Positions 991 through 62,808 of a DNA stretch of 64,000 bases are shown in pieces. The stretch is taken from contig PDHQ01000119.1 in assembly GCA_003339415.1 (NCBI GenBank), forward strand, positions 1-64,000, in the 5' to 3' direction. The notes below the pieces were generated by a model, which worked only from the letters and a program-made list of their open reading frames with translations, was not told the origin of the DNA and ran no database searches. Each line of letters opens with the position of its first letter. The first letter of the stretch is position 1. The position numbers and the translations under genes were made by a program. The DNA comes from Ophiocordyceps camponoti-saundersi (nom. inval.) (Eukaryota > Ascomycota > Sordariomycetes > Hypocreales > Ophiocordycipitaceae).

Positions 991-2189
991 CCATCATATA
1001 CTTTTCTCTCTTATATAAGCCACGTGACTTCATCATCATGGCTTGTCAACCATCACCCATAATCTCCCCCACCGCCTCTCCCACTGCTACAAAGGCAAGC
1101 GCCCATTGTTAAGAGTTCGGCGGCAGCAGTCCTTGCATAGCTTGTGTCGTCGTCATGACGTAGAAGCGCGCTTCCTGTTGGATGCGTTGGGAAGCCATCG
1201 GCTGGTTGCAGCCGTTTCGTTGCTGGGCTGGGTGTTTCGAGCAATACCGTTCGACGTTGCGTCATTGACGCCGCTAGCCGACGTCGTCTAGCCGTGATGA
1301 GTCAATGGATGTCACAGCCTTGTGGATGTGCAGATATACATACATACGTACAGACCTAGGCAGATATGTAGTATGTATAATAATGTAGCATAACAGTACT
1401 CCGTACCTAGAGTGTGTGTGAGAGTGAGATGTGCGTGAGGGAGGGTGGTGTATGTATGAGGTAAGTGTGTGTGCGTATGTACGGATTATATATGTACGTT
1501 GTGGTGTGAGTGTCCACGTAACACCATCATCATCAAGCCGCATATCCTATGCAGTGCACCGTCTGTGTCACTAGGAAATCTCTAGCAACCTTACCGCTAC
1601 GACGCCATGACGTTTCCCTCGTTCGGATTCGTTGCCGTCTCCGCACGCTTTGCTGGAGGTTGTGTGCGCGTCTTGGCGATGCGCCTGTGGTTGGATGGAG
1701 ATGAGAACGTCATGGGAGCTAAGCTTTTGAATACAAGGCAGAAGGGAAGTGGTGGGCTTGTATAGCCAGCAACTCAATCTTCATAGAGTGGCATTGGAAT
1801 GTATGTAAGGGTATCGGTAAAGAGAGGTCATGATGACTTTGATTGGCTGTATTGTCCCTCTTCGTGTATGTATGTATGTATGAGAGGCAAAGACAGATAG
1901 AGGATTTCTGTAACCAGCATCCGTAGAGATAACTGTAACAACTGTTTGCCGTGAAGCCTTCTCATCGCGAACCCCCTTCTCTCTCCCAGCAATCTTGTCC
2001 TCCGCAAGGCGTATCCTTCTCGGATCGATTCCCCGGTCATGATTGTTCGAAGTCAATAAAAGAAAGAAAAAAGTACAAAAATAATCTCCCAACAGTTAGA
2101 AACAGTAAAGAAGATTAACACCATTGACGTCCCGCCAATGGCATCTCGGCAAGGCCGGCTCAGAAAGCATCAAGCTTTCTGTCTACGAA

Positions 2190-2480
2190 ACAAAGGAAAT
2201 TGTGCCAAAGGCTCTCGCCCATGACACCTCCGGCAGAGCCGGGTAGAGAGGCAAGGAACTCTCTCGAACAAGGAAAAGAACAAAGAAAATGTACAACGTG
2301 GCCGAGAAGCCAGATAGAGAGGAACAGACTCCCCTGAGGAAAAGAAATAAAGACAAAGGAGATTAATGCCACCGACATCTCGCCGGGTGACATCTCCGGC
2401 TGAACCGGGAAGAGAGTGCGAGAACTCTCGAAAGAAATGAAATGTACAAAAGTCTCCGGCTTGGTCGAGCTTTCTCAGAA
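2190..2480. repeat. Imperfect direct duplication of about 180 bp in the 3' part of the array transcript
   Basis: A block with a CTCCGG...CCGGGWAGAGAG motif, an AGGAACTCTC or GAGAACTCTC motif, and an AAATGTACAA motif occurs at about 2215-2310 and again at about 2385-2480. It lies in what would be the last exon of the minus-strand transcript. A 176-residue minus-strand open frame (2170-2700) crosses both copies but shows no recognisable domain. Confidence 0.6.
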
Positions 2481-2867
2481 AGTGGCGAGTGGCAGAGGGA
2501 GGAGCGCGAAGACCTCTGGGGATAGTGAGAGATAGGCGGCTCAAGGCTGTACTGTTGAAGCTTTGTCCGCCTTTCACTGCTCTTCCGCGTTGAACCGTGG
2601 TTTTTTCCCCTGTGTAGGTCGGTTCGTGTCGTTGGGCTTCATTGTCTTGTTCCCGTGTATGAAGATGTTTTGGCTGGTGATGTGTTGCTCTGTATGTCAA
2701 TGTCAGCCTCGTTTCCCTAGCTATCCCGGTGGAAACTCACCCTCCCTCTGCTCATCTCAAAGAAGTGAGAATCCTCGACTCTGTCCCTCAGGGCTTGCGC
2801 TTGCGCCATGGCAGCTAGTTTCTGTCTCTGTCCTTAGGTCGGTGCTTTATGGACATCTCAGCAGCGA

Positions 2868-5800
2868 ACTCACCCCTTTCCCTAAGAACCCCAGCAGTTG
2901 GAGATGATCTAGGATCATGTCTTTGGTCTTTTTTTTTCTTTTCGGCCCAGTAAGGCTACCATTCATGGGTCTCTTTGTCTGTGGTTAAATCGATAGTCTC
3001 TGGAGATCTCAGTAGCGAACTCACCCCTTTCCCAAAGACCCCCAGCAGTTGGAGATGATCTAGGATCATGTCATAGGTTGGTTTTTTCTTTTCTGCCCAG
3101 GAAAACTACCGCCCTAAGCTTCTGTTTTTGTGGTTAGATCGAACAATCTCTGAAGTTTTTTTTAGCAGTAAACTTACCCCTTTCCGCGAAAGATCCCAAG
3201 CAGTTGGAGATGATCTTGGATCATGTCTTGGCCTTTTCTTTCTGGCCTGGAAAGACTATCTTTCGTGAGTCTCTGTTTCTGTTATTAAATCAGTTAGGTT
3301 GATTATCTCTAGAGATCTTTGTAGCAAACCCACACCTTTCCCCAAAGATTCCAAGCAGTTGGAGATGATCTATGAACATGTCTTTGGCTATTGTTTTGCC
3401 CAGAAAGACTACTGTTCATGAGTCTCTATGTCTGTGTCAGCCATTTCCTGCGGCAATCCTCGTGGGAAACTCACTCCTTTCCCCAAAGATCGTAAGCAGT
3501 TGGAGATGATCTAGGATCATGTCTTTGGCTATTACTCTGCCCAGAAAGACTGCCATCCATGAGTCTCTATGTTTGTGTTAGCTATTTCCTCCGGCGATCT
3601 TAGTGGTAAATTCACCTCTTTCCCCTCGGCTTCAGGCGGTTGGAGATGATCTAGGATCATGTCATTGGTTCTGCCTGATCAGGCTTCTGGTGGCGCCAGC
3701 GTAGCAGCTTGGTTTCGGAACCATGTTAGTTTCTTTTTCCTGGAGCAATCGCAGTAGTATGAACCCACCAATCCAAATTCCCATTTTACTTCCTCCCCCA
3801 ATCTCAAGGCAGTTGAAGTTGACAAAGAATTGTGTCTTCGGCTCTGCCCGAAAAGGCTTCAGGTGGTGCCGTTGTAGCAGATGTCTGCATCCATATTAGT
3901 TATTTCCTGTGGCGATCTCGGGGTAGACTTGCCTATTTCCACTCAGCCTCAGGTGGTTGGAGATGATCTAGGATCATGTCTTGGGTCTGCCCGAATTGGC
4001 TTCAAGTCGCTCCAGCGCAGCATATGTCTGCATCCATGTTAGATGTTTCCTGTGGCGATGTCAGAGAAAACTTGCCTATCTTCCCTCAACGTCAGGTGGT
4101 TAGAGATGATCTAGGATCATGTCTTTGACTCTGCCTGAATTGACTTCAAGTCGCGCCAGCGCAGCAGATGTCTGCATCTATGTTAGCTGTTTCCCGAAGC
4201 GATCGCAGTAGCGGACTCACCTATTATCCCTCCACTCCGAGTAGTTGGAGATGATCTTGGATCATGTCATTGGCTCTGCCCGAAGAAGGCTGCCAGCACT
4301 AGGTGCCTGCGTCTGCGTTAGGCCGTTATTCTGTCTCGTTACCAGTGGTCAAACGGACCTGTCCACGCTCAGTACAAGTGGTTGGAGATGATCTTGGATC
4401 ATGTCATTGGCTCTGCCCGAAGGCTGCCAGCACTAGGTGCCTGCGTCTGCGTTAGGCCGTTATTCTGTCTCGTCACCAGTGGTCAAACTGACCTATCCAC
4501 GCTCAGTACAAGTGGTTGGAGATGATCTTGGATCATGTCATTGGCTCTGCCCGAAGGCTGCCAGCACTCGGTGTCTATCTCCGGTTAGGCCGTTATTCTG
4601 TCTCGTTACCAGTGGTCAAACTGACCTGTCCACGCTCAGTGCAAGTGGTTGGAGATGATCTTGGATCATGTCATTGGCTCTGCCCGAAGAAGGCTGCCAG
4701 AATTAGTTGTCTGTATCTGCGTTAGGCCGTGGATTCTGTCTCGTTATCAGTGGTCAAACTGACCTATCCACCCTCAGTGCAAGTGGTTGGAGATGATCTT
4801 GGATCATGTCATTAGTTTTGCCTGTAGAAGGCTGCCAGTATTGGGTGTCTGTGTCTGCGTTAAGCCGTTGTTCCCTCGCCAATAGTAGTTGACCAACCTC
4901 TCTACCCTCAGTCCAAGTGGTTGGAGATGATCCTGGATCATGTCATTGGTTTTTGCCCCAAGGATTCCATCGGCAGTGGGTTTCTGTCACCATGTTAGCT
5001 CGATATGTTCTCACAATTTCAATAGAGCGGTTACCTGTTGTCCCTTAGCCGCAAATGTTTGGAGATGATCTGGGGATCATGTCATAAGATCTGCCCGAAC
5101 TGGGCTATTGGCATCGAGTGTCTGTGTCTATGTCAGCGTGATATTGTATATTATCTCACTTTTCCAGCTTACCTTTCCACCCTTGGCCCCAAGTGGTTGG
5201 AGATGATCTAGGATCATGTCATAAGATCTGCCCGGACGAGGCTGTCGGCATTGGGTGTCTGTGCCAGTGTAAGTTTGACGTTTTCTGACATCTCACTGCT
5301 CAAGCTCACCTTTCCACCCTTGGTCCAGAGTGGTTGGAGATGATCTAGGATCATGTCGTTGGCCCGAAGTGATGAGAGCCTATCAAGCATCTGTTCATGC
5401 TTCTGCCCGAGAAGGTTGCTGGTAGCACGACTGGTTGGTAAAGAACCTGTCTCCCGTATTAGTCGTTTCTCTGGCCTTTGAGTTTGATGGTCGGCTCACC
5501 TGTCCGCCCTCAGTTTGAAGTGGTTGAAGATGATCAAGATAAGGATCATGTCGTTGGCTCTACCCGAGAAGTTGTTTTGGGAGCTCGAGAGTGGAAGTTG
5601 TATATCTGTGTTCGTGTTAGATCGATTCTTTGACTACTTTTGTGAAAGAGATTGTCTTACATATCTTTCCGCGAAAGGAAGCAGTTGGAGATAATCGATG
5701 ATCATGTCATTTGCTCTCTCCTGCCAGAAAAGGCTTTTGGGAGCATGAGAGAAGAAGATGAGTATCTATGTCCTTGTTAGATCGGCTCTGTAACCACTTG

Positions 5801-7600
5801 TGTATGAATGGTTATCTTACCTATCTTCCCTCGAATAGAGGCGATTGGAGATGATCGGTGATTATGTCATTGGCTCTTCTCTGCTCGAGAAGATGTCAAG
5901 TGGTCTGAGGGGAGAAGATGTCTGTGGTTTTGTTAGCTCGATTCTCTGACCATCCAAGTACTTAGTAAGGTAGACTCACCCCTTTCCCCTTATGTTCAGG
6001 TGGTTGGAGATGATTGAGAATCATGTCATGAGCTATGTTTTGCTCTATGAGGCTTTTGCCCTAGAAGTCTTTGAAGGTAGGGTGAGGGTAGAAGATGTCT
6101 ATTCCCGTTAGTTCGATTCTCTGACCATTCAAGTACCTAGTATGGTAGACTCACCACTTTGTCCTCATGTTCAGGTGGTTGGAGATGATTGAGAATCATG
6201 TCATGAGCTATGCTCTGCCCGAGAAGGCCTCGAAGGCAGGGTGAGGGTAGAAGATATCTGTATTCCTGTTAGTTCGATTCTCTGACCATCCAAGTACCTA
6301 GTATGGTAGACTCACCCCTTTTTCCTTTTGTTCAGGTGGTTGGAGATGATCAAGAATCATGTCATGAGCTACGCTCTGCCCGAGAAGGCCATGAAGGCAG
6401 GGCGAGGGGAGAAGATGTCTATGTTCCTATTAGTTCGATTCTCTGAACATCTGAGTGTTAGGTCGACTCACCCCTCTTCATATATGTTCAGGTAGTTGGA
6501 GATGATTAAGAATCATGTCATGAGGTTTGCTCTGGCCGAGAAGGTTTCAAACAAGGCGAGGGAAGAAGATATCTATGTCCCTGTTAGCTCGACTGTCTGA
6601 ACATCTGAGAATTAGGTCGACTCACCCCTCGTTTCATATGTTCAGGTGGTTGGAGATGATTGAGAATCATGTCATGAGCTCATGCTCTGCCTGAGAAGGC
6701 TTCAAGTGAGGCGGGGAAGAAGATGTCTGTGTTCCCGTCAGCACAAATCTCTAACCATCTGAGAATTTAGTCAACTTACCCCTTCGCCCTCAGGTTCAAG
6801 TGGTTGGAGATGATCGAGGATCATGTCGTGAGCTCTGCTCTGCCCGAGAAGGCTTCGAGCAGGACAAGGATAGAAGACGTCTATGTTATTCAGCTCGACT
6901 TTCTGACCATCTGAGAATTTGGTCGACTCACCCCTCCCCCCTTAGGATCGAGTGGTTGGAGATGATCAAGGATCATGTCATAGTCTGAGTGTGAGAAGGC
7001 CTCTAGGAGCACGAGAGTAGAAGAGACTGTGATCTCATTAGCTCGGTTCTCTAACCATTCAAGTGCAGTAGAACTTACCCCTTCCCGTTCAAGTTCAAGT
7101 GGTTGGAGATGATCGATGATCATGTCATGGCTCTCTAGGAGCATAAGGGTATAAGATGTCTATGTTCTTGTTAGTTCAATTCTCCGGCCTCTGAATAAGA
7201 CTGATCAGCTTACTCTTTCCCTTTCGAATTCAGGTGGTTGGAGATGATCGATGATCATGTCATGGGCTCAGCCCGAAAAGGCGTCTAGGAGCATAAGGGT
7301 AGAAGGAGTCTGTGTTCCTGTTAGCTCGATTCTATGGCCCTTGAATGAAAGTGATCAGCTTACCCTTTCTCCCTCACGTTCAGGTGGTTGGAGATGATCG
7401 GTGATCATGTCATGGGCTTAGCCCGAGAAGACGTCTGGGAGCACAAGAGTAGAAGATATCTGTGTTCTTGTTAGTTCGATTCTCTAGCCCTTGAATAAAA
7501 GTGATCAGCTTACCCCTTCTCCGTCATGTTCAGGTGGTTGGAGATGATCGGTGATCATGTCATGGGCTCAGCCCGAGAAAAGCTGCAAGCAACGCAGAAG
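2868..7600. repeat. Tandem array of about 32 units with a palindromic core
   Basis: A core of the form GGAGATGATCNNNGATCATG recurs at about 2901, 3051, 3205, 3361, 3501, 3641, 3811 (degenerate), 3957, 4101, 4245, 4381, 4517, 4650, 4786, 4920, 5061, 5196, 5335, 5525, 5685, 5850, 6002, 6180, 6340, 6497, 6650, 6803, 6956, 7101, 7237, 7387 and 7536. The mean spacing is about 150 bp. Between cores sit a conserved TCTGCCCGAGAAGG-like block, a GTTAG block (minus-strand branch point) and a CTCACC or CTTACC block (minus-strand donor). Neighbouring units resemble each other most (4245-4920, 5850-6650 and 7101-7536 form sub-families), so the array grew by local duplication. Confidence 0.92.
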
Positions 7601-8394
7601 CTATATACATGTCTGTTCTCATGTCAGGTCGATTCTCTTTTGCAAGGATGGTGGGAAAATTTACCCCCCCAAAATTCCCGCGATGGCTGGTTCGGAAAGA
7701 TGTCCCTGCTCGAGAAGGTTCTCGATAGGCGAGATGCTGCATTCATGTCAGTCTTGTCTCTCTGAGAAGTTTTGGAAGTCGGCTCACCTCTGCATGCTCC
7801 GGCAAGTGCTACTCCGGAAGGATGGCTATGCCCGAGAAGGCAGCAATTGTTTCCTACCTGTCGATGTCAGACTTAATGTCTTCAAGGTGATCTTGAATGG
7901 TCAGCTTACCTATCCCTATTCCGGCGAGAGCTGATACAGATCCATGGCTCTGCTCGATGAGACTTCCTCCTGCTTTGAGACAAAGAGGATGCAAAGGAAC
8001 GGCGTCCTGTTTGGTTGAACGAATCCTCGCGCTGGATGGCCGCTTGAAGCAGGCGAGCCTCTGTAGATGGAGAGGCGGTAGATGGCTTGAGCAGCCGAGG
8101 TTTTTGATGGATATCTGAAGGGAAGCAGAGGAGTGCCTCTTGTAGGAAGTCCATCCATTCGTTGGAGGTCTTGAAGGGCTCATCTTATGGAGAAAGTCTT
8201 GAAAGGACTAAGGAGGAAGTCTTGAAGGGTAAAAGAAAGAGGACAAGAGAGATGTTGGATGATGGATGAGTGCATCTCGTGGAGGTTGGAAGATGAGCAA
8301 GTCCATCTCTGTAGTAGAGAAAGAGGACTGTTGTGTTTGTCTTGGTGCTGAGAGGATGAAGAAGAAGAGGAAAAGAGGCCGAGGAGAGTGGGAG

Positions 8395-8710
8395 GGCAGA
8401 GGGGTATTTATACCCGTGGAGGAAGCATGTCTTGGTGCTGAGAGGATAGAGAAGAAGAAGAGAAGAAGTCGAGGAGAAGTCGAGGAGAGAGGGAGGCCAG
8501 AGGGGTATTTGTACCCGTGGAGGAAGCATGTCTTGGTGCTGAGAGAGTAGAGAAGAAGAGGAAAAGAGGCCGAGAAGAGTGGGAGGACAGAGGGGTATTT
8601 ATACCCATGAGGGAAGCATGTCTTGGTGCTGAGAGGATAGAGAAGAAGAGGAAAAGATGTCGAGGACAGTGGGAGGGCAGAGGGGTATTTATACCCGTGG
8701 AGGAAGCAGA
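8395..8710 (-). promoter_or_regulatory. Four tandem copies of a TATA-box promoter cassette
   Basis: The palindrome GGGGTATTTATACCC starts at 8401, 8592 and 8692, and a variant with TATTTGTACCC starts at 8502. Spacing is about 90-101 bp. Read on the minus strand each copy gives GGGTATAAATACCCC, a good TATA box, except the 8502 copy, where it is TACAAATA. Each is followed downstream on the minus strand by a CT-rich stretch, as is common near fungal start sites. The cassette also repeats a CATGTCTTGGTGCTGAGAG block. Position and orientation fit promoters for the array transcript to the left. The repeat is seen; promoter activity is inferred. Confidence 0.6.
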
Positions 8711-8729: not shown

Positions 8730-9480
8730 AGGTTGCGGTGGTGGTGATTCAGGATAAGGGAAGAAGAAGCTGTGCGTCACAGGCGTGCTGTCGTTGAGCC
8801 CCACAGGTGTCGTGATGATGATGGCCGTGATTCACGACAAGAGAGGCAGAAGAAGGAGTCGTGCGTCACCGTGGTTGTTGAGCCCCACAGGTGTCGTAAC
8901 AGTAGGCGTGATCTAGAACAAGAGAGGAAGATGAAGATGAAGAAGAAGCTGTGCGTCACAGACGTTGTGATTCGCTGCGACTGCGCGCCTAAGATCTTGT
9001 GGTAAAAGTCGTCGTGATTCACGACCAAGAGAGGCGGAAGAAGGAGTCGAGCGAGCGCCACAGATGCTGTGATACGCTGTCGTCGTTGAGCCCCACAGAT
9101 GTCGTAATACATATAGTAGGTGGTTGTGGTCTGGGGAAAGAGAGGAAGGAGAAGCTGTGCGTCACAGACGATTTTGATTCGCTGTCGATACGCGCCACAG
9201 ATCTCGTGATGATAGTCGTGATTCACGACTTTGAGAGGAAGAAGAAGAGGAAACTGTGCGTCACAGAAGATTTGCTGTACTGGCGTTGAGCCCCACAGAT
9301 GTCGTAATAATACACGGTCGTGATTCACGATAACAGAGGAAGAAGAAGAAGGGAAGAGGAGGATGAGGATGAGGATGAAGCTGTGCGTCGCAGACGTTGT
9401 GATGCGCAGTCGTTGCGCGCCACAAGTGTCGTGATGCGTCGCCCATGCGCTGCCATTGAGCGCCACGATCTAATCACCTA
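8730..9480. promoter_or_regulatory. Degenerate repeat array, candidate upstream activating region
   Basis: Three short motifs alternate. GTGCGTCAC (usually followed by AG) occurs near 8774, 8862, 8952, 9156 and 9257, with a GTGCGTCGCAG variant near 9383. GTTGAGCCCCACAG occurs near 8793, 8877, 9085 and 9285. The near-palindrome GTGATTCACGA occurs near 8829, 9015, 9217 and 9311. They are joined by GA-rich spacers (AGAGAGGMAGAAGAAG). The array ends about 180 bp before the SDR gene start at 9658 and borders the TATA cassettes, so it could serve either side. No protein-coding frame is credible: the 229-residue minus-strand frame is a translation of the repeat. Confidence 0.5.
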
Positions 9481-9657
9481 TATACCTAGTAGGCTATGTA
9501 CTATCGTGATGCGCGGCGCCCCCCCAATTTTAGAGCCGCTTCACGTCACTGGTGTCCGTGTCCGTGATTCAACTACGGATACCTAGTACCTCTCTTACTC
9601 CAGTGCACTGCTCGGCTTCGGTACCCCTCCACCTCCCACACACACAACCACTTTACA

Positions 9658-10759
9658 ATGTCCACCTCTTCTGCCTTTCTCTACTCTATCCTCGGCCACT
9701 TCAACAGGTTGCCCTACCCGACAGAGGACTGCAGCGGGAGAACCGTCATCGTCACCGGCGCTAACACGGGTAAATGTGAAACCTGTCCTCTACCTCGGAT
9801 CTTCATCTCACTCTCATCATCGTAGGCTTGGGTCTCGAGGCCGCTCGACACTTCGTTCGACTCAATGCTGCCAAGGTCATCCTCGCTTGTCGCAGTCTCG
9901 ACAAGGCCGAGGCCGCTAGACGCGACATCGAGGCCACGACGAAGAGGACCAATGTCGTCGAATCCTGGCACTTGGACCTCGCCTCCGTAGACAGCGTCAA
10001 GGACTTTGCCGATCGCGCCACTTCCACACTCGATCGTCTGGATATCCTCGTCGACAATGCCAGCGCCTTGAACTTGGAATGGGTTTTGGCCGACGGTCAC
10101 GAATTGACCATCACCGTCAACGTCATCTCAACTTTTCTCTTGACCCTGCGTTTGCTGCCCTTGCTGCGTCGCACCGGCCAGCGCTTCAACCTGACGCCTC
10201 ACATCGTCGTCGTCTCCTCCGACGCCGCCTTTCTTGTCTGCTCAAGCCCACCTCGTAGATATATGGATGACCAAGAGGCTGACGGCTGAACAGCAAGGCC
10301 TATTTTCCGGAACGCAACGCTCAAAACGTATTCGACGGCCTCCAGAGCAAGGACAACTTCAGAGAACGCTACAACACCTCTAAACTGCTGCAGCTCATGG
10401 CCGTGCGTCAACTGGCTCCCGCCTGCGACGCCTCCGGCAAGGGCCACGTAATCATCAACACCCTCAACCCGGGCTTCTGCGGAACCGAGCTCTTTCGCAG
10501 CCTGCCTTTCCCCGTCAGTATCGTCTTTCGAGTCCTTCTCGCCCTCTTCTCCCGCTCGCCGGAAAAGGGCTCCCGGACGCTCATGACTGCTGCTTTTGCC
10601 GGCGAGGCCAGCCACGGTCTGTCGATGACCAACTGCGGCCCCCATCAGTGGCCGCCCATGATGGATGGCGACGAGGGCGAGAGGCTGAGCGAAAAGTGCT
10701 GGCATCAGCTGCTTCGCATCCTTGATGACATTGATCCGGGCGTCTCGGACAATATATGA
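9658..10759 (+). CDS. Short-chain dehydrogenase/reductase (SDR), retinol-dehydrogenase-like
   Basis: Three exons: 9658-9769, 9826-10235 and 10298-10759, giving 327 residues, a normal length for this fungal SDR group. The Rossmann nucleotide-binding motif TGANTGLG is assembled across intron 1 (residues about 33-40). The strand-4 N-A-S-A segment (normally NNAG/NNAA) and the YNTSK active-site motif (YxxxK) follow, and the catalytic serine region reads VVVSSDAAF. Intron 1 (56 bp) has donor GTAAAT and acceptor TAG. Intron 2 (62 bp) uses GTCTGC with an AAG acceptor, chosen because it restores the family spacing SSDAAFLAYFPER; a CAG four bases earlier would break frame. Start chosen at the first ATG with a leader of typical form (MSTSSAFLYSILGHF). 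The family reduces or oxidises carbonyl or hydroxyl groups with NAD(P)H; the substrate cannot be read from sequence. Confidence 0.9.
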
Positions 10760-10934
10760 TGAAGCCGACTTGGCATTTGACTCATGGAACACACACGTAT
10801 GTATACGTACACACGGTTGAACACGCGAACAAGCACGGGATTACAATATACACACACACACACATATATATGATAGTTCTATATCAAACTCGATCACAGA
10901 CATGAAACAACTTGGCTACCGATGAGCCCGTCTA

Positions 10935-11270
10935 TCAAGGCCGGCTTTGGCCGTTGGCTTTGTTTTTGGCAACATGGCACCAAAGCGACTTGTAGCCCGA
11001 CCAACAGCCAAGGCCGTAGCCTTTCTTGCAACTAGCGAGTCTCGGAGTGGAAAAATGTGAGTCGGTGATGTCCATGTCCCTCGTCCAGTCCATGAGCTTC
11101 CATGCGCCGACGCGTTCGTTGAGAAAGTAGGCCGTGACCGAACAAAAGGGGCTGTTGCCCGACCACCTGCAGGGCTTCCCGTCCAGCTCGCAGTGGTATA
11201 CGAGCGACGCGGCTGCGTTCGTGGCCTGCAGGCATGAGGCTAGGAAGAGACCGGTGATTGAAGGCTGCAT
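10935..11270 (-). CDS. Small secreted cysteine-rich protein (effector candidate)
   Basis: Single-exon frame of 111 residues. The N-terminus MQPSITGLFLASCLQATNA is a clear signal peptide with likely cleavage near residue 19-22. The mature part has six cysteines (27, 34, 43, 81, 89, 98), enough for three disulfides, and is rich in Trp and Tyr. I recognise no family. It is convergent with the SDR gene, whose stop is 175 bp away. Secretion is inferred from the signal peptide. The start is the first ATG of the frame and the only one that gives a signal peptide. Confidence 0.7.
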   Translation of the reverse strand: MQPSITGLFLASCLQATNAAASLVYHCELDGKPCRWSGNSPFCSVTAYFLNERVGAWKLMDWTRDMDITDSHFSTPRLASCKKGYGLGCWSGYKSLWCHVAKNKANGQSRP

Positions 11271-13024
11271 CGTTCAAGTTTTTTGAAAGTGCTTGTTAAC
11301 AAAGGGACGAAGAGGCGGACTGTAAGATGTCTATGTGCTTATTGAATTCTGAGATCTGAAGTCTAGAGACAAATGACTGTGATGCTGATGATCTGGAAAT
11401 TCGAGACCGTGACCAGGTAGCTAAATATGTAGGTCTGACAGCTGGACAAAGACCGCACCTCCCGAGCCGTCATCGAGTAAGAAAACACCTATCTATAACT
11501 CGCAGAGAATAACTCCGTCTTGACTATTGGCTTGGAGGGCGCAAAATCCTCAGTTGGCCACGGCTTGGATGGACAGTCTGGCTTCAGCAACTCTATGCCA
11601 AAGCATCATTCCTTGGAACTCACTTGAGTAACGCCGGCTTCGGCGGCCGCAACTCGGACGATTTTTGTTTCCTAAGCCAATAGTTATGACATCTCCTGGT
11701 CTATGCATCTGTTACTCCGACGACAACGATGTTGTCGCCTATTTATACCAAGCCAATAGCCAAGACGCCTTTTTTCTAACTCTCTTCTCATTAGAGAGAC
11801 TTGTTTCAAATAACTTTATATCTACATACTCACTCAGGCTTGCCCATCTGTCTATGCGTTTACTCGCATAGCTCACTGCGGTTCTCTGGCGAGTCTGGAC
11901 CTGACCTTTTTATTCGCCTTCCGCTTCACTTCTGCCTAGGTAAGTAAGTATGAACGTTCGTTCGTATTCCTTGCCGCATCAGTGCTTATTGTTGGTGCCA
12001 GATGACACCGTGCCAGCAACAGCAATCTGTAACTCCTGCCATCGAGATGAGCCGGTCGGCGGCTTTCGATCCGCTTCTATATATTTCTTGATACGAGTTT
12101 CGGACAATGAAGTGTCTTCTTCGGAGAAACGAAGGCATGGTGCTTCGCCGTCTGCGAGCGATAGGTTGATCGGGCTGGCGATCTGGAACTTTCCTCCTCG
12201 CATCCAGGCGAGGACTCATAGCAGCATTACCTTTTCGGATAGCGTCTGATCTGTAGATGAGTTGGTATTCGCTTAGGGCACAGAGCTCATCTCGACTTCG
12301 TCTTATACGCACATACGATGTATTGCCCTCATTGGAATACACGGAGCTATGCCCGAGCCAAGCACATATAACTTTAAGCTTCGCCTATGTTCATTGCAGT
12401 CGTGCTATACCTTTTGCATTGAGTCGGGGATATACACATAGACGCACTGCAGTGGCCGAAAAGCCATACATGTGAGGAACTTCTTTCGCATTTAGGGTAA
12501 TGCAAAACGCCTTTGGTGCGTGGAACTCAGTCTCCATGAAACGAGCATTATTGCAGTCATCTCCTTGCAGGTAAGCATCGTAGATGTCCTTGTCTAGGTG
12601 CCTATATGTAGGCAGGTAGATAGGTATGGCTGCTCGTATTAAACAGGGCACAACTTACTCGGCCGGAGTTTATCTATATACACAGCATGCTTGCCGCTCG
12701 GTGACAATTTTATCGTAGGATCGGAGGTGGACGCAGGCACATCTCTCTTGCTTGTATCCGTAGATGCAGTGAACCCATATATTGAACTGCTATCGAACAA
12801 CATGTGCTCTTGTCCGAACTCGTCCAAAGTCTGCGAGGAAGAGAGACGCGTTATATATTCCCTATTCTGCCCTCGATCATGCCTTTACTCAATTGCTATT
12901 CCGATCTCTGTATGCTGGATATCAGAAAGTGGCACATCAGTGTTGTTTATGCCGAGGCTTGGCAGCACATTCATCCCTACTTTCCGTGTGAAGCATAACC
13001 TCTCTCAAAGAAACTCGGCACGAC
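11271..13024. other. Long intergenic stretch with unresolved ORF fragments
   Basis: No complete gene could be built. Several plausible open pieces exist on the minus strand (see 12407-12830), and the plus-strand frames of 68-99 residues show no domain. Base composition is like the flanks, with no transposon signature. Confidence 0.45.
12407..12830 (-). pseudogene. Fragment of an unknown minus-strand gene
   Basis: Two open pieces join in frame if an intron runs from a GTAAGT donor (near 12663) through a TTTAATAC branch to a CTAG acceptor (near 12597). The joined tail contains CNNARFMETEFHAPKAFC and VRLCVYPRL and ends in a stop near 12409. Upstream, towards 12830-13000, I could not find a start or a splice pattern that keeps the frame, and the LysM gene begins at 13025 on the other strand. 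I do not recognise the protein. It may be a truncated or decayed secreted protein gene, or chance coding potential. Confidence 0.3.
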
Positions 13025-13654
13025 ATGGCAAAGGCTTTCCTTGCTCATGCTTTACTGCTGGGTAGTTGCTACGTGACAGCATCGGTTGTCCCTAGCAGGA
13101 GAAGTGTCACAAACTGTGCTCTCTGGCAAGAATACAGTTCGCGGACTTCCGATGAGCTGTTGAACGAAATATCCTCTGCTTCTGAAGACTTCAAAAGATT
13201 GGTTAGTTCTGTATTCTTCTCTCTTTTGGTAAGACAGGGAACTGATTTACCGCTGCTGCAGAATCCAGACGTCGAATTGTCCGGGGAGGCCGTCATCGCC
13301 GGCCCATATTACTGCTTAGTTGGAGCTGGCCCCGTCCCTTCGGGTTCAAGAGAGAGACCGAGCCACGGCCTGATTTCGCGCGACGCATCTCCTCGTCGAA
13401 GAATCCCCAACCTATGGGACCTGAAAACGAAAACCGTGCCAGAGATGGAGCTGTGCCAGCTAAAACACTACATAAAGCCCGGCGATACCTGCGAATCAAT
13501 CCAGAAGCTGTACAACTTGTCGTTCGAGGACCTTCATAATTGGAATCCATCGATTGGGAAATGCTGTGAATCATTACATGCTGGAGATTGCATCTGCGTG
13601 ACAAAGCCAACGGGAGTCTTGCATTATGGGCTAAGCGGGATAAGTTTTCCGTAG
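13025..13654 (+). CDS. Secreted LysM-domain protein (effector-like)
   Basis: Two exons, 13025-13201 and 13262-13654, giving 189 residues. MAKAFLAHALLLGSCYVTAS is a signal peptide. Two LysM-type segments are visible: a degenerate one (residues about 30-83, ending FKRLNPDVELSG then GPYYC) and a good one (about 121-170: LKHYIKPGDTCESIQKLYNL then NWNPSIGKCC and DCICV). The 60-bp intron (GTTAGT donor, TGCAG acceptor) is a multiple of three without stops, so the unspliced frame is open too. Splicing is preferred because it restores the FKRL-NPDV junction inside LysM 1. LysM proteins bind chitin or other N-acetylglucosamine glycans, and fungal secreted ones often hide chitin from host receptors; for this copy that is inference. 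Confidence 0.85.
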   Translation: MAKAFLAHALLLGSCYVTASVVPSRRSVTNCALWQEYSSRTSDELLNEISSASEDFKRLVSSVFFSLLVRQGTDLPLLQNPDVELSGEAVIAGPYYCLVGAGPVPSGSRERPSHGLISRDASPRRRIPNLWDLKTKTVPEMELCQLKHYIKPGDTCESIQKLYNLSFEDLHNWNPSIGKCCESLHAGDCICVTKPTGVLHYGLSGISFP

Positions 13655-13869
13655 ATGAGGAAGGCTGATGGAATAGGGGGTTATGACTGTTCATACATGC
13701 ATAAGTAGGTAGGTTTCATGAGGAAAGTGTTTACATAGAATAGCTTGTTAGATTCGAGGAGAGGTTCTATGTCTCACAAGACAGAGTAGTACATATGAAG
13801 CGTGGTGTCTAGTTGTGTTCAATACATGATGTATCAACAGCAAAGGGTCGACTCAAGAGAAACCGGGCT

Positions 13870-15966
13870 TCACCTTGAAAACCAGCTGGCGGTCATATCG
13901 CGTAGAGTATTCGTCCCGCAGTGTATATCTCCGCCGCCGGAAAAGTGCGAGAACCAGTCGTCGACAAAAATAACGCTGTAGTTGACCTTGGCATAGGCGT
14001 TCTCCACGGCCTCGGCCAATATGTCTATGCCAGCAACGAGCGGCCCCCACGGATCTGGGGCAATGACGGTCGAGTCGCTGATGACGATGCTATTGATCGA
14101 GCCTGGATACAAGGTGCTCACCGAAGGACCTGGCTTTATCTCCTCCCATGCTCGCGCATCGCGATCCTTCTCGTCTCCCGTTTCGAGTCTGGCTCCAGTC
14201 TGCTGCCTGCTGTCATCATGCCTCGGCGTGCCTGCTGCCCGTTCGTCTTGGGCTTTGACCTTAGATTTAACCGTCCAGGTAGACTTTTTAACAAGCCTTC
14301 CTTGTGTGCCTCTGCCTCGATCCCCAATCCAATTATCCTCTTCTGCGACGAAGTCGCGGCAGTGGTGATCAAAGACAGTCGAACTGTTTTCGTACCCGTT
14401 GAGGTAGAAAATGGCTGGTATGCGGATGATTTCCGCGTCCGTGATGCCCGTCTCTCGCTTGATGATGTCGACGTTCTCGTCTATGGCCTGCGCGCTGTAG
14501 TCTTGCAGGAAGCTCATGTAAGGAAGAAGGAGTGAATCTTGGATAGTACTGGCCGGCAGACATTCATCTCTGTCCGAGGGGAATTTTGGGCGTGAATGAG
14601 ACTTGACCTCGCCATGGCCGGCCATGAAGGCATCTTCAAGCAGCTTCAGACCCGCAAGCGGATCGCTGACCACCAAAACCCAACCTCGCTTACTTTCATA
14701 CGGTAGAAACTGCATGAACTCGTCCGTGTGGCCGATATAAAGCCAACTGGTATCAAGCTCAATAGGGTTCTGCAACTCCTGAGACTTGAGAAAGTTCATC
14801 ATAAAGGGTCTCTTCCCGTCCTGTGAACCCATGACCGCTCGTCCTGCCGGATACGTCTTCCCTCTGTGAGAATAAGGAGGGATAGCCTCGAGGTTACCAG
14901 TAGAGTCGCTCGTGTCACCCCAGGCTAGGTACTGGACGGCTCCGACGGTATCGGACCGGAGCGTCTGAAATACCTGACGTCCGCTTCGGCGATTTCTCTG
15001 AGCCGACCTGATCATGACGCGTAAGCCGACGGGGCCGTCGGGGCCGGGTATTGACATGTAGCCCGGTTCGAAAAAGTCTTGAACCCATATGTCGCTAAGG
15101 CTACTGTGGTTGAGCTGGAGCAACGGCAGGCCTGCCTCCTTGGCTATTTCGTCAAGATCTTGAACGAACTTGGCCTGGACGGCATTGGTTCGGAATTCCG
15201 TCTTGTTCACGTCCTTGTCCTCTAGAAAGGCAGATTGCACGATGAGCTTCTCGGCCTTCTGTAGGTGATTGTGTATCAAGACAGGGGCAACGCGTAGCTG
15301 GACCCAGTCAATGGCCTTGACCCTTCTCGCGTTTCTAACTGTGAAATGGATATCGGCTTTCCCATTCCATCTTCCTGGGCGACGGACGTCTCGAGCGTCA
15401 ATGCCCAGCTCGAGGCCGCCACGCAACTCCGAAGCAGAGAAGTTGTGATTTGAGCTGATATAAATCCATTCAGACCCCTTTTTCTGAAAGATTCGCGTAT
15501 TCAATGCCGCTACTGTCCCAAAGACAGTAATAGAGCCTACGTCTTTCGGTTTCAGAGCCGATGTGAGCACAGGAAGGGTCCGAAGCGGTGCCAGATATCT
15601 TGGGTTGCGAAGGATGTTGTCTGCAGCATCGTGGCACGAGCCTAGCTCCTCTTCGGGCGTTGACTTTGTTATCTTCAACGAGCATCGACGATCTGTGTCG
15701 ACGATGTTGGCGAGAAACAGCGCTCCCGAGTCCGCCGTCCAGATGCGCTTGCCCGCGACGTCGCTATCGCCCTCTGTGTCGACGACGCCATCTCTGTTGC
15801 TGTCGGCGAGGATCGTGACGGTCATGGGCTCCCTCGAGTACTTCATCCTCAAGTTATCGAAGGTGTCATGAATAAAGTTGACTGCGTTGGCGACCTCAAA
15901 CGGCGCGCCTATGGCTGTTGAGACGTGTCCCATGAGAGCGGCGAAAGAGGAACCTGAGTTCCACAT
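13870..15966 (-). CDS. Protein-arginine deiminase (PAD) family enzyme
   Basis: An open frame without introns, 698 residues from the ATG at 15966. The frame stays open upstream to about 16005 but only with a non-ATG codon. Family marks: an N-terminal VTILADSNRDGVVD segment as in the PAD middle domain, then the deiminase domain with the four catalytic positions in order: Asp in IWVQD (about residue 297), His and Asp in GHTDE (413, 415) and the nucleophile Cys in DIHCGTNT (683). PADs convert peptidyl arginine to citrulline, in animals with calcium. A charged, low-complexity insert of about 85 residues (about 530-615) separates the RIPAIF strand from the C-terminal catalytic part. No clear signal peptide is visible at this start, so a missed upstream exon is possible. 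All catalytic residues are present, so activity is plausible. Confidence 0.85.
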   Translation of the reverse strand: MWNSGSSFAALMGHVSTAIGAPFEVANAVNFIHDTFDNLRMKYSREPMTVTILADSNRDGVVDTEGDSDVAGKRIWTADSGALFLANIVDTDRRCSLKITKSTPEEELGSCHDAADNILRNPRYLAPLRTLPVLTSALKPKDVGSITVFGTVAALNTRIFQKKGSEWIYISSNHNFSASELRGGLELGIDARDVRRPGRWNGKADIHFTVRNARRVKAIDWVQLRVAPVLIHNHLQKAEKLIVQSAFLEDKDVNKTEFRTNAVQAKFVQDLDEIAKEAGLPLLQLNHSSLSDIWVQDFFEPGYMSIPGPDGPVGLRVMIRSAQRNRRSGRQVFQTLRSDTVGAVQYLAWGDTSDSTGNLEAIPPYSHRGKTYPAGRAVMGSQDGKRPFMMNFLKSQELQNPIELDTSWLYIGHTDEFMQFLPYESKRGWVLVVSDPLAGLKLLEDAFMAGHGEVKSHSRPKFPSDRDECLPASTIQDSLLLPYMSFLQDYSAQAIDENVDIIKRETGITDAEIIRIPAIFYLNGYENSSTVFDHHCRDFVAEEDNWIGDRGRGTQGRLVKKSTWTVKSKVKAQDERAAGTPRHDDSRQQTGARLETGDEKDRDARAWEEIKPGPSVSTLYPGSINSIVISDSTVIAPDPWGPLVAGIDILAEAVENAYAKVNYSVIFVDDWFSHFSGGGDIHCGTNTLRDMTASWFSR

Positions 15967-16005
15967 GTTTCCCAAAGAGCACCAATGTGGTAATTTCAGG
16001 GGCAA

Positions 16006-17645
16006 GTTAGAAACTTGTGTCTTCTTTTTCCTTTTCTATCAGTTTCTTTAGATCGGAGGCTGCATTGTTTGTTGACTGGATCGAATATTACAGCAGGATA
16101 AGAACTAGGACGAGCCAGGCTGGTCTCGCCGGTAACAGACTTATAGACTTGTAGACTTATAGTTAAATATAGTAATTTCCCTCGATGGGCTTCATTCGTG
16201 GGCACTACATGAGATTGAGGTTGTCAGCGGATTGTGAGCACTATGGGGTCAGTCAGTGTTCATAAATCAATGCTTAATGAACGTTGAATTGAGCCGGGAT
16301 GAGAGTCCGTCGGCTAGGATTTAAGCAGTCGTCGGCTGGCTACGATTTCATTAAGGGAAGTCGTTCACTCAAACACAGGGCTTTGACGGAAAGCACGGCA
16401 AAAACCTTTGCTTCAACCTCGGTCGAAGGCAAGGGCATGTGTGGCCTTATTTCTGAGCGAGAATGTCCCAAGTCCGCAATGACCGTTGGTTGCGGGCCCT
16501 GTGATGATGAGTTGGTAGAGAGGTTTTATTTCAACATACTTTGGCTTGAGTTGCTCAAGATCCACACGACGGCTGCTGTTACTACTATTTAGAGAAGGCG
16601 GTTGACTTACAGAATGGCCCGGGATCGCGGGACATTTGCTGGTTCCTCCAATTCGTTTCCCCCTGCATGTGCACTGTCTCCATACTGTCATACATATGTA
16701 GGTATGTTTGGAGATTATACACAGAAAGATGTGTTTATTCTCTTGATCAGTTGTCGGTCTTGAAGTCCCGGCAGTCTAGCAGATTTAACTGTCTCGAAAA
16801 TAGACTCACACATACATATGTATGTATACACATATATATATATATGTAGATATATCTATTTATGTGTATGTGTCTCTATATGCGATACAAACGAGCGGAG
16901 ACGGCTTCAACGAGCGTAGAGCCGATGAAGCCGATGAGACTGTAGGTATGTATGTGCATAAAATAAGAGCCGATGTGGGAACTGCCCAGATTCGAGACTC
17001 GCACCATTTTCTCCTCTGCAGAACTACATAAATACTAGCAGAAGTAAACGCGGCGAGCGGAACACGGGAGCCAGCATACGTATCCACGTATGTTGGTAGT
17101 TGGTGGGAGACAGCATCTTCAACCTGACATACTACACAAGTGATTTCTTGCGGCCGTCAGAGGGTAGATAGGCTGGCCTTTGAGAGATCTTAGTGACTAC
17201 CTAGGTAGGTTGGCTGGTAAGTTAACCAAACACTTGGTGGTGAAAGTTTTATCTACTAATATTTACAAGCAACTGTTGTGATGGTGAGTTTCTTGTTGCA
17301 GGACGACGTCCGTCATATCATAGTAGGCAAGGTGAAGGAGCTGACAGCTAGCCGATTATGTAATCACAAAATCCCCATGACGCCCTTCCATCTCACGTGA
17401 CGCTCGTTGGCTTGCCCAGGCTGTCACTGTATGAGTTCTGCCTACCTACCTAGTAGTAGTAGGTACGATAGCCTCATCCTTCCCCTCTTCTCGAACCTCT
17501 CTCTGTTTCATGAAGCCATGGCAAACAGTCTCTCCTCTTCAGTCCCTGCAGAATCGTTCGAATCATCCAACTTCCAGCTTCTCTTCGGCAGCCCGGCTAG
17601 CAGTCGTTTCTACGCCTGAACCTCGCCACGAAGTCGGCCTTCGCC
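16006..17645. other. Intergenic region between PAD and MED5
   Basis: No supported gene. It contains TA-rich microsatellite at about 16800-16865, TAGGTA/TACCTA short palindromes (about 17205-17220 and 17440-17465), and a 98-residue plus-strand frame (16299-16592) with no domain. The part just upstream of 17646 is probably the MED5 promoter and 5' UTR. Confidence 0.5.
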
Positions 17646-20600
17646 ATGGACGGGAGCGACGAAAGCAAAGCAGCTCTACAGACATCGTGGCGCTACTGGA
17701 CTCACTTCATGTTCAAATGCATCGTACACAGTCCCAAACCCGAAATTGATCAGTTTCGCGGCTTCGCCCAGTATCTCAACCGACAATATCCCCTTCCGCC
17801 CATCTTCATCGCCGACGTCTTCTTGAAACCGATTTACGGCAATATCACCCTTACTCCGCAATTTCCCATATATGTCAAGGCCCTTTGCCAGCTTGGCTTG
17901 GTCGACGTCTCATCCGTTCTGGTCGCTCTTTGCAAATATTCTTCGCTGAATGCCTACATCCGCCACCCGTCCCGCACTGGCGAAGATGCAGAGGATCATG
18001 TCCAATCCCCCAACAACCTTGAACAGCGGAGGATTTGGCGGGTCTCGAGTTGGTTCGAAGAGTTCTTCTTCTATCAGCTTATCAGGACTCTGGTTGACGG
18101 CTCCGCCTTTCGAGACATCCGCTCGACCTTGGTGCTCGTCAAAATCGTCTGCAAATGGATGGCTTTGTTCACTGCGGCCTCGGCGGCCGTTGCCACCGAT
18201 ATACTCGCTGAAGTACAACAAGCACGAGAACGAGATGGCTTGCCGCGGGGACAGGAGGACCTAGAAACTTCTCGAGCCGCTTTCCTCCCTTTTCTGACAC
18301 GTCTTGTCGAGACTCCGGCTCTCGTCGACGCTCTCCGGCACCCGATTGCCCGAGGTACGGAATGTTCATTCTACCTTTTGACCACAGTTCTTAATCAAGT
18401 CTGCAGATGTTCGCAGAGAATTGCTTGAAACTCTCACACGCTTCAGACACACTTTGCCGCCGGATACAAATTTTGGCGAGAGGCTCGACATGTTTCGCTG
18501 TGAGACGCTGGCTCGACTCGACCCGCTCCCCAAGAATAGGCAAGCCGACGCCATGGACGAATTCCTAGAGCCTGTTATGCGACTGGAAAATTTTGCAATT
18601 CCCGATATCCCCATCCCCAATTCGCGGGCTGGTCTCTATGTCTACTTGAATGCTGCGGTATGCCACTCCGGTCTCAACTCCTGCTCCGTTAGTCGTGGCA
18701 ACGATACTAGGCTATTTCGCCTCAGGAAACTCACTCAAATTCACTCGCTGACGGACGCAGCTCGTAGGGCGACCACTGATCGATGATGCCATGCTAATTT
18801 CCTTCCTACACAATCGATATCAGGTATGTTACCCACTGATGCAAGATTGGACCGAGACTGAAGTGGAAAGCAGGGCGAGACGCAGTCGAGCGCTATCGAT
18901 CTCATCGTGGCCTCATTCGATATTCTCGCCAACACAGTTTTCCGCAGTGAGGGTCCTAAGGATGCCCATCTCTTACGGTCGTTTCTCATCAACAAGTTGC
19001 CTCTGCTTCTGTGCCAACTTTTTGCATCTCAGTTCTCCACGGCCTCGTCCGAGTATTGCATTACCGAGGCCCTCAACCAGGTCGACACGAGCGTCTTTCC
19101 CACAGCTTCCCTGATGTTCGATGAAACTAGGAGTAACAATCCGTACACAGAGAGCGTCAGGGAAGATTTTTGCACTGCATGTGCTCTGCATGGCCTCGTG
19201 CGACGAGAACACGTCGAGCGAATACTAGGAGAGACATCCATGTCCTACGAGCCATCATTGGAAAAGTATTCCAAAGATAAGCTCGTGCAGAGCTGCCTGT
19301 CGGACCCGGACAGGATTCAGGGCTTGGTCCGAGATATTGACAAGATGGACGGCAACGTAGGGGCCATCTGCCAGGCTCTCGTCGAGGTGCGATTGCGTGC
19401 TCCTCGTCGTCAAGCCGTCCCTTGCTGCTGACCAGACCTGCAGCTCATGCGCCAACTCTGCGACAGCAAAGAGACCATGTCGCTCAAGCTGTTGTGTAGC
19501 CAGCTGGCACATAAGCCTCAGTCTCTCGATATACTTTTACTATTCGAGAGGTTGCCTGCCGTCCTCGAGCCGCTGTGTCAGCTCCTGGACAACTGGAGAT
19601 ATGACGACGATCAGGGGGAATACCAGCCAATTTACGAGGAGTTTGGTGGGATATTGTTGCTGGTCCTGGCTTACGCATACCGATATAATCTGAGGGCTGC
19701 AGATATCGGCATCGTTTCATCTGACTCGTGCGTCGCCAAGATTTTGGATCGGGCTCACATCAGTCGTCCTCTCGACGAACTTACGGAGCAGGAGAAAACC
19801 CATGTTAACGGCTGGATCCACGGCCTCTTCGGCAGCGAGACGGGCGGTCTTGGGGACGACCTCATGTCTTCGTGTCCACCTCAGGACTTTTACTTGGTTG
19901 TGGCGTCGCTGTTTCAGTACATCGTGAGCGCCTACACCCACGGCTATCTTAACGTGGAGAGCCTGAAAAGCGGTATAGAATGTGAGTTGTCGGGTATGAG
20001 CGCATATCGCGGCATATACTGACGGCAGCAGACGTGGTGGACACATTCCTGCTCCCGTCTCTGGTGCCGGCTATTCGTTTCCTGGCGGACTATCTGTGGG
20101 TGGACCAGAAGGAGCAGAAGTCGGTCATCAAGATCCTGCAGCTCATCCTACTACCGAGTTCCATCTCGGGCGAAGCTTCGGCGATGCTGTCGTCGGTGAA
20201 GAACTTGATAGCCAAGCCGCTCGAATACTCACTTCGATCATACCAGAAGCAGGATCCCAAGAACCAGGATATCGAGCCCCTTCTCCGGGCTCTCCGGGAC
20301 AATCTGCCGCTATCTCGACGGACGGGAGGCGCGGAGCACCACGAACTAGACTCGTGGTCAAATAGTTCGAGCAGCGGTCTGTCTGGTGCGATTCGGCACA
20401 CAGTTCAAGGGCTAGTGCAGATGCACCACGGCGTCAATGTAATGCCTACATCGTACACGCACCGACAGACCATCGCGGCATGTCGCATAGTGGGGACTAG
20501 AAGGGTTCTGCGAGCGATGCTTGACGAGATTCGTCACCAGCCCGAGGCCTACGATGTGGTTACGATGCTCGTATGCGCGCCAGACGTTACGATTGAATCG

Positions 20601-21065
20601 CCGGCAAGTGGTCTGCTGGAGGCAGCAGGCAGCGCGGCGTCCCAGCGACGGCTGACGCTGCGCGAGGCGCTCAAGGCGGAGTCTGAGAGCTGCCTGAAGC
20701 CGAACAAGAAGGAGGAGGCAGAGACGGTGGTACGGCTTCATAGACGGGTCGAGGCGATGTTGGCGCTACCGGCGGCAGCGACGATGCTGGAGGCGCCGGA
20801 CATACCGTCGCTGGACCTGAGCGGCGGACCGGGAGCACTCGTCACCGGTGGCATGGCGGCTGTGGCGCAGGGCGCCGGCGGCGGCATGATGATGGAGGCC
20901 GTCGGGCTCGACATGGCACTAGGCAGCGCCTCGTCGGACCTAGGGCTCGGGGGCGTGGGCGGAGGCGGGCTGGAGGCAGCAAACGAAGGGGAGATGTTTT
21001 GTCGGACGCTCGACCCCCAATTGGAAATTTACTGGGGAGACGGGATGAATACGAGCGGGGGGTGA
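17646..21065 (+). CDS. Mediator complex subunit 5 (Med5/Nut1)
   Basis: Six exons: 17646-18354, 18407-18657, 18761-18823, 18874-19386, 19444-19981, 20032-21065, giving 1035 residues, typical of fungal Med5 (about 1000). Introns are 52, 103, 50, 57 and 50 bp, each with GT donor and AG acceptor and all phases consistent. Recognised from Med5-like segments LVGRPLIDDAMLISFLHNRY, LCSQLAHKPQSLDILLLFER, LLLVLAYAYRYNLRAADIGI, FQYIVSAYTHGYLN and VDTFLLPSLVPAIRFLADYL, which are built only after splicing. Med5 sits in the Mediator tail and links activators to RNA polymerase II. The C-terminus (from about residue 950) is Gly/Ala/Met-rich, ending in FCRTLDPQLEIYWGDG. The retrotransposon block starts 392 bp after the stop codon. 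Confidence 0.9.
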
Positions 21066-21457
21066 GACGATTATGGTGAAGGAGGAGACTTTGGCTGAGG
21101 AGGTTTCTTTTTCGAAGGAGTCCTGGATCGATGGCCTTCCTGGATTAATAGACGGTTATTACCTACATAGGTAGACAGACACTGCTTGATATGTGTGTCA
21201 GTATCCGTACGGAGTATGGGGGGAGTTGATAGGGCGTCGACACAACAGGTTATATGCATGGCCAAAAGGCGTCGTCGTCGTTAGTCACAGGCACGCGACT
21301 GCAGAGGTGGTGGCGTAGAAGGTACGGAGGTTAACAGCTATAAGTATCTCTTCACCCGTCGACCACCATCTAATACCCTACCTCTGCTAGGTATACCGCT
21401 ATAGAATCTTCTCTTCCTTTCCGCTCATATCTTATCTTATTAGCCCCCCCCCCCCTA
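21066..21457. other. 3' flank of MED5 up to the transposon block
   Basis: Normal base composition until the LTR at 21458. Holds a TACGGAGTA/CCGTACGGAGTA palindrome near 21207, a TAGGTA motif near 21170 and a poly-C run at about 21444-21455 directly against the LTR. Confidence 0.6.
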
Positions 21458-21583
21458 TGGCCGTAGGCCACGTGCGTGTGCACGTGACACGCCTATCTAT
21501 ATATATATTAGCTTAGCTCGGGCTATATAGGGCTCTTACTATATAATATAAGATTATTATATCCTATATATATCGTACTACTA
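21458..21583 (+). repeat. 5' LTR of element A
   Basis: 126 bp, starting TGGCCGTAGGCC. It matches 46785-46910 except at RIP-type transitions. The outer ~40 bp are unmutated (TGGCC, GTGTGCACGTGACAC) while the inner end has G-to-A and C-to-T changes (ACTACTA where the other copy has GCCACCA). Confidence 0.9.
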
Positions 21584-48330: not shown

Positions 48331-48634
48331 TTTTACATCAAGTTTTATATTTGGTATATCCGCGAATTTCAAGTTGGCTCTACATAGCCCTATCGCAGAG
48401 GAGTTACCTTGGGACCAAACGGTGAAAAGGAGAGAATGGTCAAGTTGTAACTTGGAGTGGGGAGCATGGGTATTATGGAGCACTGCTGGAATGACGCTCA
48501 TAGCAAAAACTGCGCCGGGACGTGTCGTTAATCATCGGATAGCTTCGCCACGGGAGAGGGGGATGTCATGTAGGCATTCATCGATCATGGAAGAATTATG
48601 GCCTGTAAGGCTGTACCAGAGTCTCGAGTCCGTT

Positions 48635-52910: not shown

Positions 52911-53231
52911 CGTCGAGATCGTGTGGCTCAGAAGCAGGAAGTCATACTTTGATTAAAACGAGGTTGTGTCGATGACGAATGTCGAGCATTACGTAAGCCC
53001 ACAACGTTCCGGACTACTAAGAAATCTTGCCTGGCGAACTGTCGGCCAATTGCATGAATTAATCCGACTTGCTTATCTAACGCTTCAAAGCTCTTTTTCC
53101 ACTCCCATCGTCAACGAGCTTCGGTTCGATGCTGGCAGAGGCGCCGGCCTACTACTCCCGCGGAAAGGTAAGCCTGTCGAAGAACTTTGTTTAATGACGC
53201 ATCTGACTCAGACTTCCTCTCTGGTTCAGAC

Positions 53232-62719: not shown

Positions 62720-62808
62720 TGTTAAGAACGGCTACGCAAGGGAAGAAACGCCAGGATCGGTTGGGCATAGGCGCGTGAGATTACAAGAAAACGAAGAAAC
62801 TGGGAAAA

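Follow-up and report, generated by a model that had tools for sequence, protein, structure and literature searches.

Tandem arrangement of exons and introns inside one noncoding gene is known from mammals, where exon-intron units of the SNORD116 / SNHG14 (IPW) region follow one another along a single long noncoding transcript that is spliced, with C/D small nucleolar RNAs (snoRNAs) residing in the introns. In fungi, genes for KexB-processed precursors of ribosomally synthesized and post-translationally modified peptides (RiPPs) also possess tandem repeats within one gene, but these are in frame and coding. Xist and NORAD likewise hold many copies of short elements in spliced noncoding RNA, mostly within one or a few exons, which are thought to provide multivalent protein binding. 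The modules of Xist are the subject of a review (PMC8786293). Other fungal noncoding transcripts are RZE1 of Cryptococcus (PMC4654512) and the long noncoding RNA (lncRNA) regulating TRI5 in Fusarium (PMC10853542), and the available parts of both papers mention no tandem exon array. Here we describe a locus on the minus strand of a 64,000-nt stretch of Ophiocordyceps camponoti-saundersi (contig PDHQ01000119.1, positions 1 to 64,000; hereafter the window), which differs from each of these systems: its introns are only about 52 nt long, there is no C box on the minus strand and the conserved element is exonic, every copy of it has an exon and an intron of its own, and coding is contradicted. We propose, with a confidence that is about evenly balanced and on the basis of the sequence, that it may be a single-locus gene for a promoter-driven, spliced noncoding RNA whose repeated protein-binding hairpins would make it multivalent. 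The author of a preliminary description of the locus knew of no described fungal system of such form, and none was found in the open-licence literature that we searched.

According to our analysis, 32 tandem units with a spacing of 133-190 bp occupy positions 2874-7612, in agreement with the approximate count given in the preliminary description. Each unit comprises an exon, followed by an intron of about 52 nt, and in all units but one the exon carries a core, GACATGATY-NNN-RATCATCTCCAAC, whose two arms are inverted repeats of each other around a loop that varies freely. The core search listed 33 sites, of which 31 were kept and two with five mismatches (5446 and 2670) were discarded, and one degenerate unit was added by hand. 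With a stricter threshold of three mismatches at most, 29 matches were found in the array and none in 100 shuffles. The whole gene model has 36 introns within about 5.2 kb, where the preliminary description counted roughly 35, and 35 internal exons; three of the introns belong to the leader, 32 to the array and one to the tail. For Ophiocordyceps polyrhachis-furcata, the genome paper gives 3.29 exons per gene (PMC4625970). Neighbouring units tend towards the greatest mutual similarity. The main features of the array, all on the minus strand, are as follows:

2874..7612, minus strand: array of 32 exons (81-137 nt) with their introns, core present in 31 (core search, manual unit addition, exon-intron model)
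3790..3884, minus strand: degenerate unit in which the core arms are mostly gone, followed by an 82-nt intron (3789-3708) with an AAG acceptor (unit alignment)
7537..7561, minus strand: example core, GACATGATC-ACC-GATCATCTCCAAC, with 29 close matches across the array (core searches)
7460..7513, minus strand: example unit intron of 54 nt, GTAAGC ... CTAAC ... ACAG (exon-intron model)
2822..2873, minus strand: final unit intron with a weak branch site (exon-intron model, sites picked by eye)

The array (2850-7600) is repetitive yet without a signature of repeat-induced point mutation (RIP), with TA/AT of 0.60 and CA+TG over AC+GT of 1.41. An AT-rich block of the same window (24000-48000, 31% GC) has a strong RIP signature, the corresponding values being 1.59 and 0.11.

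All introns but one are 46-61 nt long, the exception having 82 nt. Donors are GT in 34 of the 36 and GC in the other two, acceptors are CAG (26), TAG (9) and AAG (1), and a CTRAY branch site lies inside the final 24 nt of 31 introns; the five without a perfect one have their donors at 6931, 5309, 4897, 3024 and 2873. The earlier claim that every unit keeps a donor, a branch point and an acceptor stands for the 36 introns drawn, apart from these five branch sites and the AAG acceptor, and to call all donor variants functional was too strong, as GTCCGT, GTTGGT, GTAACC and GTGGGT, which occur once each, are weak. The splice sites of units 3825, 3060 and 2909 and of the leader and tail introns were chosen by eye. 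A strict intron pattern was found in 2601-8000 on the minus strand 25 times and on the plus strand three times, versus a mean of 0.73 and a maximum of 4 when the dinucleotides were shuffled 200 times; the flanks (9600-24000 and 48000-64000, 30.4 kb together) gave four on minus and three on plus. Mapped onto a tree that joins all 32 units, the splice columns require 1.89 Fitch steps per column (9 columns) versus 6.40 for the other intron columns (40 columns), with p = 5e-6 if columns are taken as independent, the tree having been built from the same alignment and the splice columns named after inspection of it. The splice motifs are kept while their surroundings change, and the splice sites are under constraint.

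The exonic core is conserved even more strongly. It is the slowest part of the unit (1.00 step per column, 21 columns), while its loop takes 4.5 steps (4 columns), and CTCCAAC, which lies outside the six-base arms, is conserved to the same degree as the arms. The preliminary description suggested selection on splicing or on the spliced product; the constraint on splice columns agrees with this, and as the core is slower still, the spliced product is the likelier target of selection than splicing. Three introns (donors 7909, 7787 and 2740) have no recognisable core on either side and have good sites, therefore the core is not required merely for intron definition. Standard pairs occupy 97.7% of 256 cells of the core stem, falling to 16-43% with one side slid. 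The second core arm begins 34-38 nt before the donor in all 32 array exons (36 nt in 24 of them), and the distance from the acceptor to the arm is 45-101 nt. We considered a core-donor ruler here and make no claim of it: on a rough reading, about four length changes in about 22 free bases versus at least 14 in about 60 do not give a clearly lower rate. A second element (about UUCUCGGGCAGAGC / TTCTCGGGCAGAGC), which stands upstream of the core in most exons, occurs in 24 of 35 exons with at most four mismatches, the mean for shuffled exons being 0.78.

Coding is contradicted for the spliced product, just as the first reading of the sequence had it. Only 10 of the 35 internal exons have a length divisible by 3, and the longest ATG frame in the spliced RNA, 101 codons, is chance-like (300 mononucleotide shuffles have a mean of 94.5 and 33% of them reach 101). 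Pairwise differences after the core show no codon-position pattern, being 0.361, 0.321 and 0.280 for positions 1, 2 and 3 (23 of 31 exons, those of a single core-to-donor length, in pairs that differ at no more than 10 sites).

A second species possesses a counterpart of the locus. Joined exon translations were compared with 5.77 billion proteins (1,411 candidates scored) and gave a single hit, L249_4535 (E 9e-21), a partial hypothetical protein of O. polyrhachis-furcata BCC 54312 with 342 aa and five repeats of the DMIxDHLQP type. The order of the alignment follows the window: repeated motifs upstream of the gene (9442-8817) match the start of L249_4535 weakly (E 2e-4 to 0.05), the leader exon at 8091-7972 matches its residues 78-117 with 55% identity (E 4e-6), and the units at 7561-6929 match with E 1e-19, residues of about 118-190 having no good match in the window. 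In the best unit alignment the first gap of L249_4535, 18 residues or 54 nt, falls on the intron 7513-7460, and the later gaps are not intron-exact. The L249_4535 model appears to begin within the promoter repeats and has its last repeat in a different frame (IISNH), which suggests a protein imposed on the locus by a gene finder; inputs to gene prediction in that genome included RNA-seq transcripts, according to the genome paper (PMC4625970). Taken by itself, the match would assign the window to Ophiocordyceps or a close relative. A Pfam search of L249_4535 gave no match, its locus tag returned nothing from the open-licence papers searched, and two more protein searches, whose queries were a shorter and a longer one and which each covered a limited range of protein lengths, added nothing, so that one relative is known.

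Copies of the array elsewhere were not found either. Across the 45.7 Mb and 733 contigs of the genome to which it belongs, the core occurs at two mismatches or fewer at this locus only; a 14-base fragment of it has one occurrence outside the array (C122:19354), which we take as chance. A search of the same genome for copies of the tail, leader and promoter, with simple repeats and very common words skipped, returned the locus itself and one match inside the array. Exact core patterns were absent from IMG/VR and from bacterial and archaeal genomes, as expected for a fungal locus.

From these observations we infer that the locus would be transcribed and spliced, that the inverted repeat would form a hairpin in RNA and that a protein would bind it. 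RNA polymerase II would read the minus strand from a multi-module promoter at about 9440-8338, with a transcript running from about 8400 to about 2050. With some 36 small introns removed, the 32 duplicated exons would be joined and the resulting noncoding RNA would measure about 4.4 kb, and in the mature RNA so predicted the core stands in 31 of 32 array exons (29 close matches). It would present about 31 copies of the hairpin AUGAUY-NNN-RAUCAU followed by single-stranded CUCCAAC, with the second element upstream of the hairpin in most exons. Such an RNA would most likely bind many molecules of a single RNA-binding protein, acting as a platform or a sponge, and the number of exons would set its binding capacity. 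The putative parts of the gene outside the array are these:

8740..9440, minus strand: putative upstream regulatory region with motifs of about CACAGRTGTCGTRAT, GCTGTGCGTCACAG and GTCGTGATTCACGA (plus-strand forms), 5-10 copies each (motif search)
8338..8708, minus strand: tandem repeat of 90 bp in four copies, all containing a TATA-type box, putative tandem core promoters (TRF)
7910..8395, minus strand: putative leader exon (exon-intron model; its part 8091-7972 is the one that matches the relative's gene model)
7613..7909, minus strand: leader introns, three in number (7909-7858, 7787-7737, 7664-7613), with two diverged exons lacking a recognisable core (7857-7788, 7736-7665) (exon-intron model, sites picked by eye)
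2690..2740, minus strand: tail intron between exons without core (exon-intron model, sites picked by eye)
2050..2689, minus strand: putative last exon with several hairpins (folding z -3.1 vs 60 mononucleotide shuffles, a lenient control)

The upstream motifs are spaced mostly 70-130 bp apart, with a few gaps near 200, and GTCGTGATTCACGA is a near-palindrome. TATA-type boxes start at 8693, 8603 and 8513 (as TACAAATA) and at 8412. A short-chain dehydrogenase gene runs divergently on the plus strand from about 9657, and the region between it and the array is possibly a shared bidirectional regulatory region. The leader exon has a folding z of -5.7 versus 60 mononucleotide shuffles, the same lenient control. 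It also holds an 82-codon ATG frame, spanning the stretch that matches the relative, which could be a small conserved open reading frame (ORF). In the putative last exon there is a 13-pair stem at 2145-2117, and loosely repeated modules without core can be seen by eye.

A number of our own results weigh against the interpretation as a multivalent RNA. Units were located through their core, which biases its conservation upward, and the exon columns outside it (5.57 steps, 58 columns) do not stand apart from intron interiors (p = 0.13). Covariation in the stem is thin: one pair has both sides changed, in four nearby units that probably share a single event, and among five measures of covariation the double-change pairs and further pair types were reached by 336 and 327 of 500 shuffles. 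Unit 5856 has an A.C mismatch within the stem. Folding of 16 of the 32 array exons gave a stability not above that of shuffles (z -1.75 to +1.34), scans for PUF motifs and for determinants of selective removal (DSR) gave nothing convincing, and neither a known motif nor a partner came to light. Between core and donor as a whole, the steps at codon positions 1, 2 and 3 are 2.81, 3.69 and 4.33, a weak hint of coding. Finally, the inverted repeat is equally compatible with a DNA site for a protein dimer.

This last point leads to the explanation at the level of DNA, in which the core would be a palindromic site for a DNA-binding dimer, for instance in a boundary, silencer or segregation element, and splicing would be incidental to promoter read-through. 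The free 3-nt centre of the inverted repeat suits such a site, and stem counts do not separate an RNA hairpin from a DNA palindrome. We nevertheless regard it as unlikely, since it does not account for splice columns that are conserved above the surrounding intron, for the good introns retained by core-less leader and tail exons, or for the conservation of CTCCAAC beyond the arms.

A small chance is left, in our estimate, to a host transcript of small RNAs, whose hairpins or exons would be excised as microRNA-like RNA (milRNA) or small interfering RNA (siRNA), the introns ensuring release or recruiting RNA interference. A repeated hairpin, one promoter-like region and many introns would fit this, but a stem of 6-8 bp is short for a Dicer substrate, and Rfam gives no match at gathering score, only three weak ones (E 1.1-4.5). 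As to a C/D or H/ACA snoRNA host cluster, a snoRNA would not fit into introns of about 52 nt, and the C box (RTGATGA) is found in 2001-8400 never on the minus strand and once on the plus strand. Curated snoRNA models gave nothing at gathering score in the whole window, a sub-threshold C/D match lying at 9333-9404 on the plus strand (E 4.5, 17.4/50 bits), and a transfer RNA scan gave nothing convincing.

It is quite improbable, in our opinion, that the locus is a protein gene, either a remnant or fast-evolving, which arose by exon duplication around a DMIxDHLQP repeat and has its working form in the relative's model. The DMIxDHLQP frame of the core is stop-free in 13 of the 35 internal exons and the 342-aa model does show five such repeats, but the remaining exons carry stops in this frame, exon lengths break the phase, and the model itself has the promoter-repeat start and the frame-shifted last repeat described above. 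The slight rise at third positions between core and donor, which would favour coding, is dominated by the conserved core and is not repeated outside it. Besides, decay of a protein gene should erode the splice sites too. The spliced RNA also has 176 consecutive codons free of stops, with no ATG near their start, which could be counted for this explanation, though they lie in the tail (putative last exon) outside the array.

Very doubtful is also a function of the introns as such, which would titrate splicing factors or yield stable lariats: the sheer density of introns would speak for it, but nothing in the unit changes clearly faster than their interiors, whereas the exonic core changes least. 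That the array is a functionless satellite or minisatellite, with splice-like motifs inherited from one ancestral unit, is hardly probable at all, for although tandem arrays do spread by unequal exchange and adjacent units here tend to be most alike, the core and the splice columns change little along the tree of units (constrained sites within units, in line with the earlier rejection of a plain satellite), the core is confined to one locus, and the counterpart in the second species includes the leader.

The window starts at base 1 of the contig, 2 kb from the locus, and its first 2000 positions have many runs of CA, CT and C, with no ORF of 200 aa or more. Farther away we noted a Med5-like ORF (20034-21065, plus strand), an SNF2-type helicase with a RING finger (48635-52765, minus strand), a 156-bp tandem duplication (59962-60280) within a lysine- and glutamate-rich plus-strand ORF (59419-60684), and the C-terminal part of a family 3 glycosyl hydrolase (62809-63834, minus strand).

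Ophiocordyceps is a genus known for manipulating the behaviour of ants. We may tentatively suggest, as a possibility that we ourselves hold to be rather doubtful, that the locus represents a new class of fungal RNA gene, where exon duplication and splicing would assemble a multivalent noncoding RNA. The gene would have about 36 introns, a protein-binding hairpin in each exon and a repeated promoter of its own, and would be conserved in Ophiocordyceps, with exon number tuning its capacity and a possible role in RNA-scaffolded bodies or in regulation during infection. A caution for annotation would follow, as gene finders may convert such loci into doubtful proteins, and the locus of the relative stands in the database as hypothetical protein L249_4535. 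If the suggestion is true, this would be a noncoding gene with a number of introns far above what is usual for its kind, in which evolution multiplied an RNA element by copying exon-intron units, and it would allow one to ask cleanly if multivalency is by itself enough to drive the function of an lncRNA.

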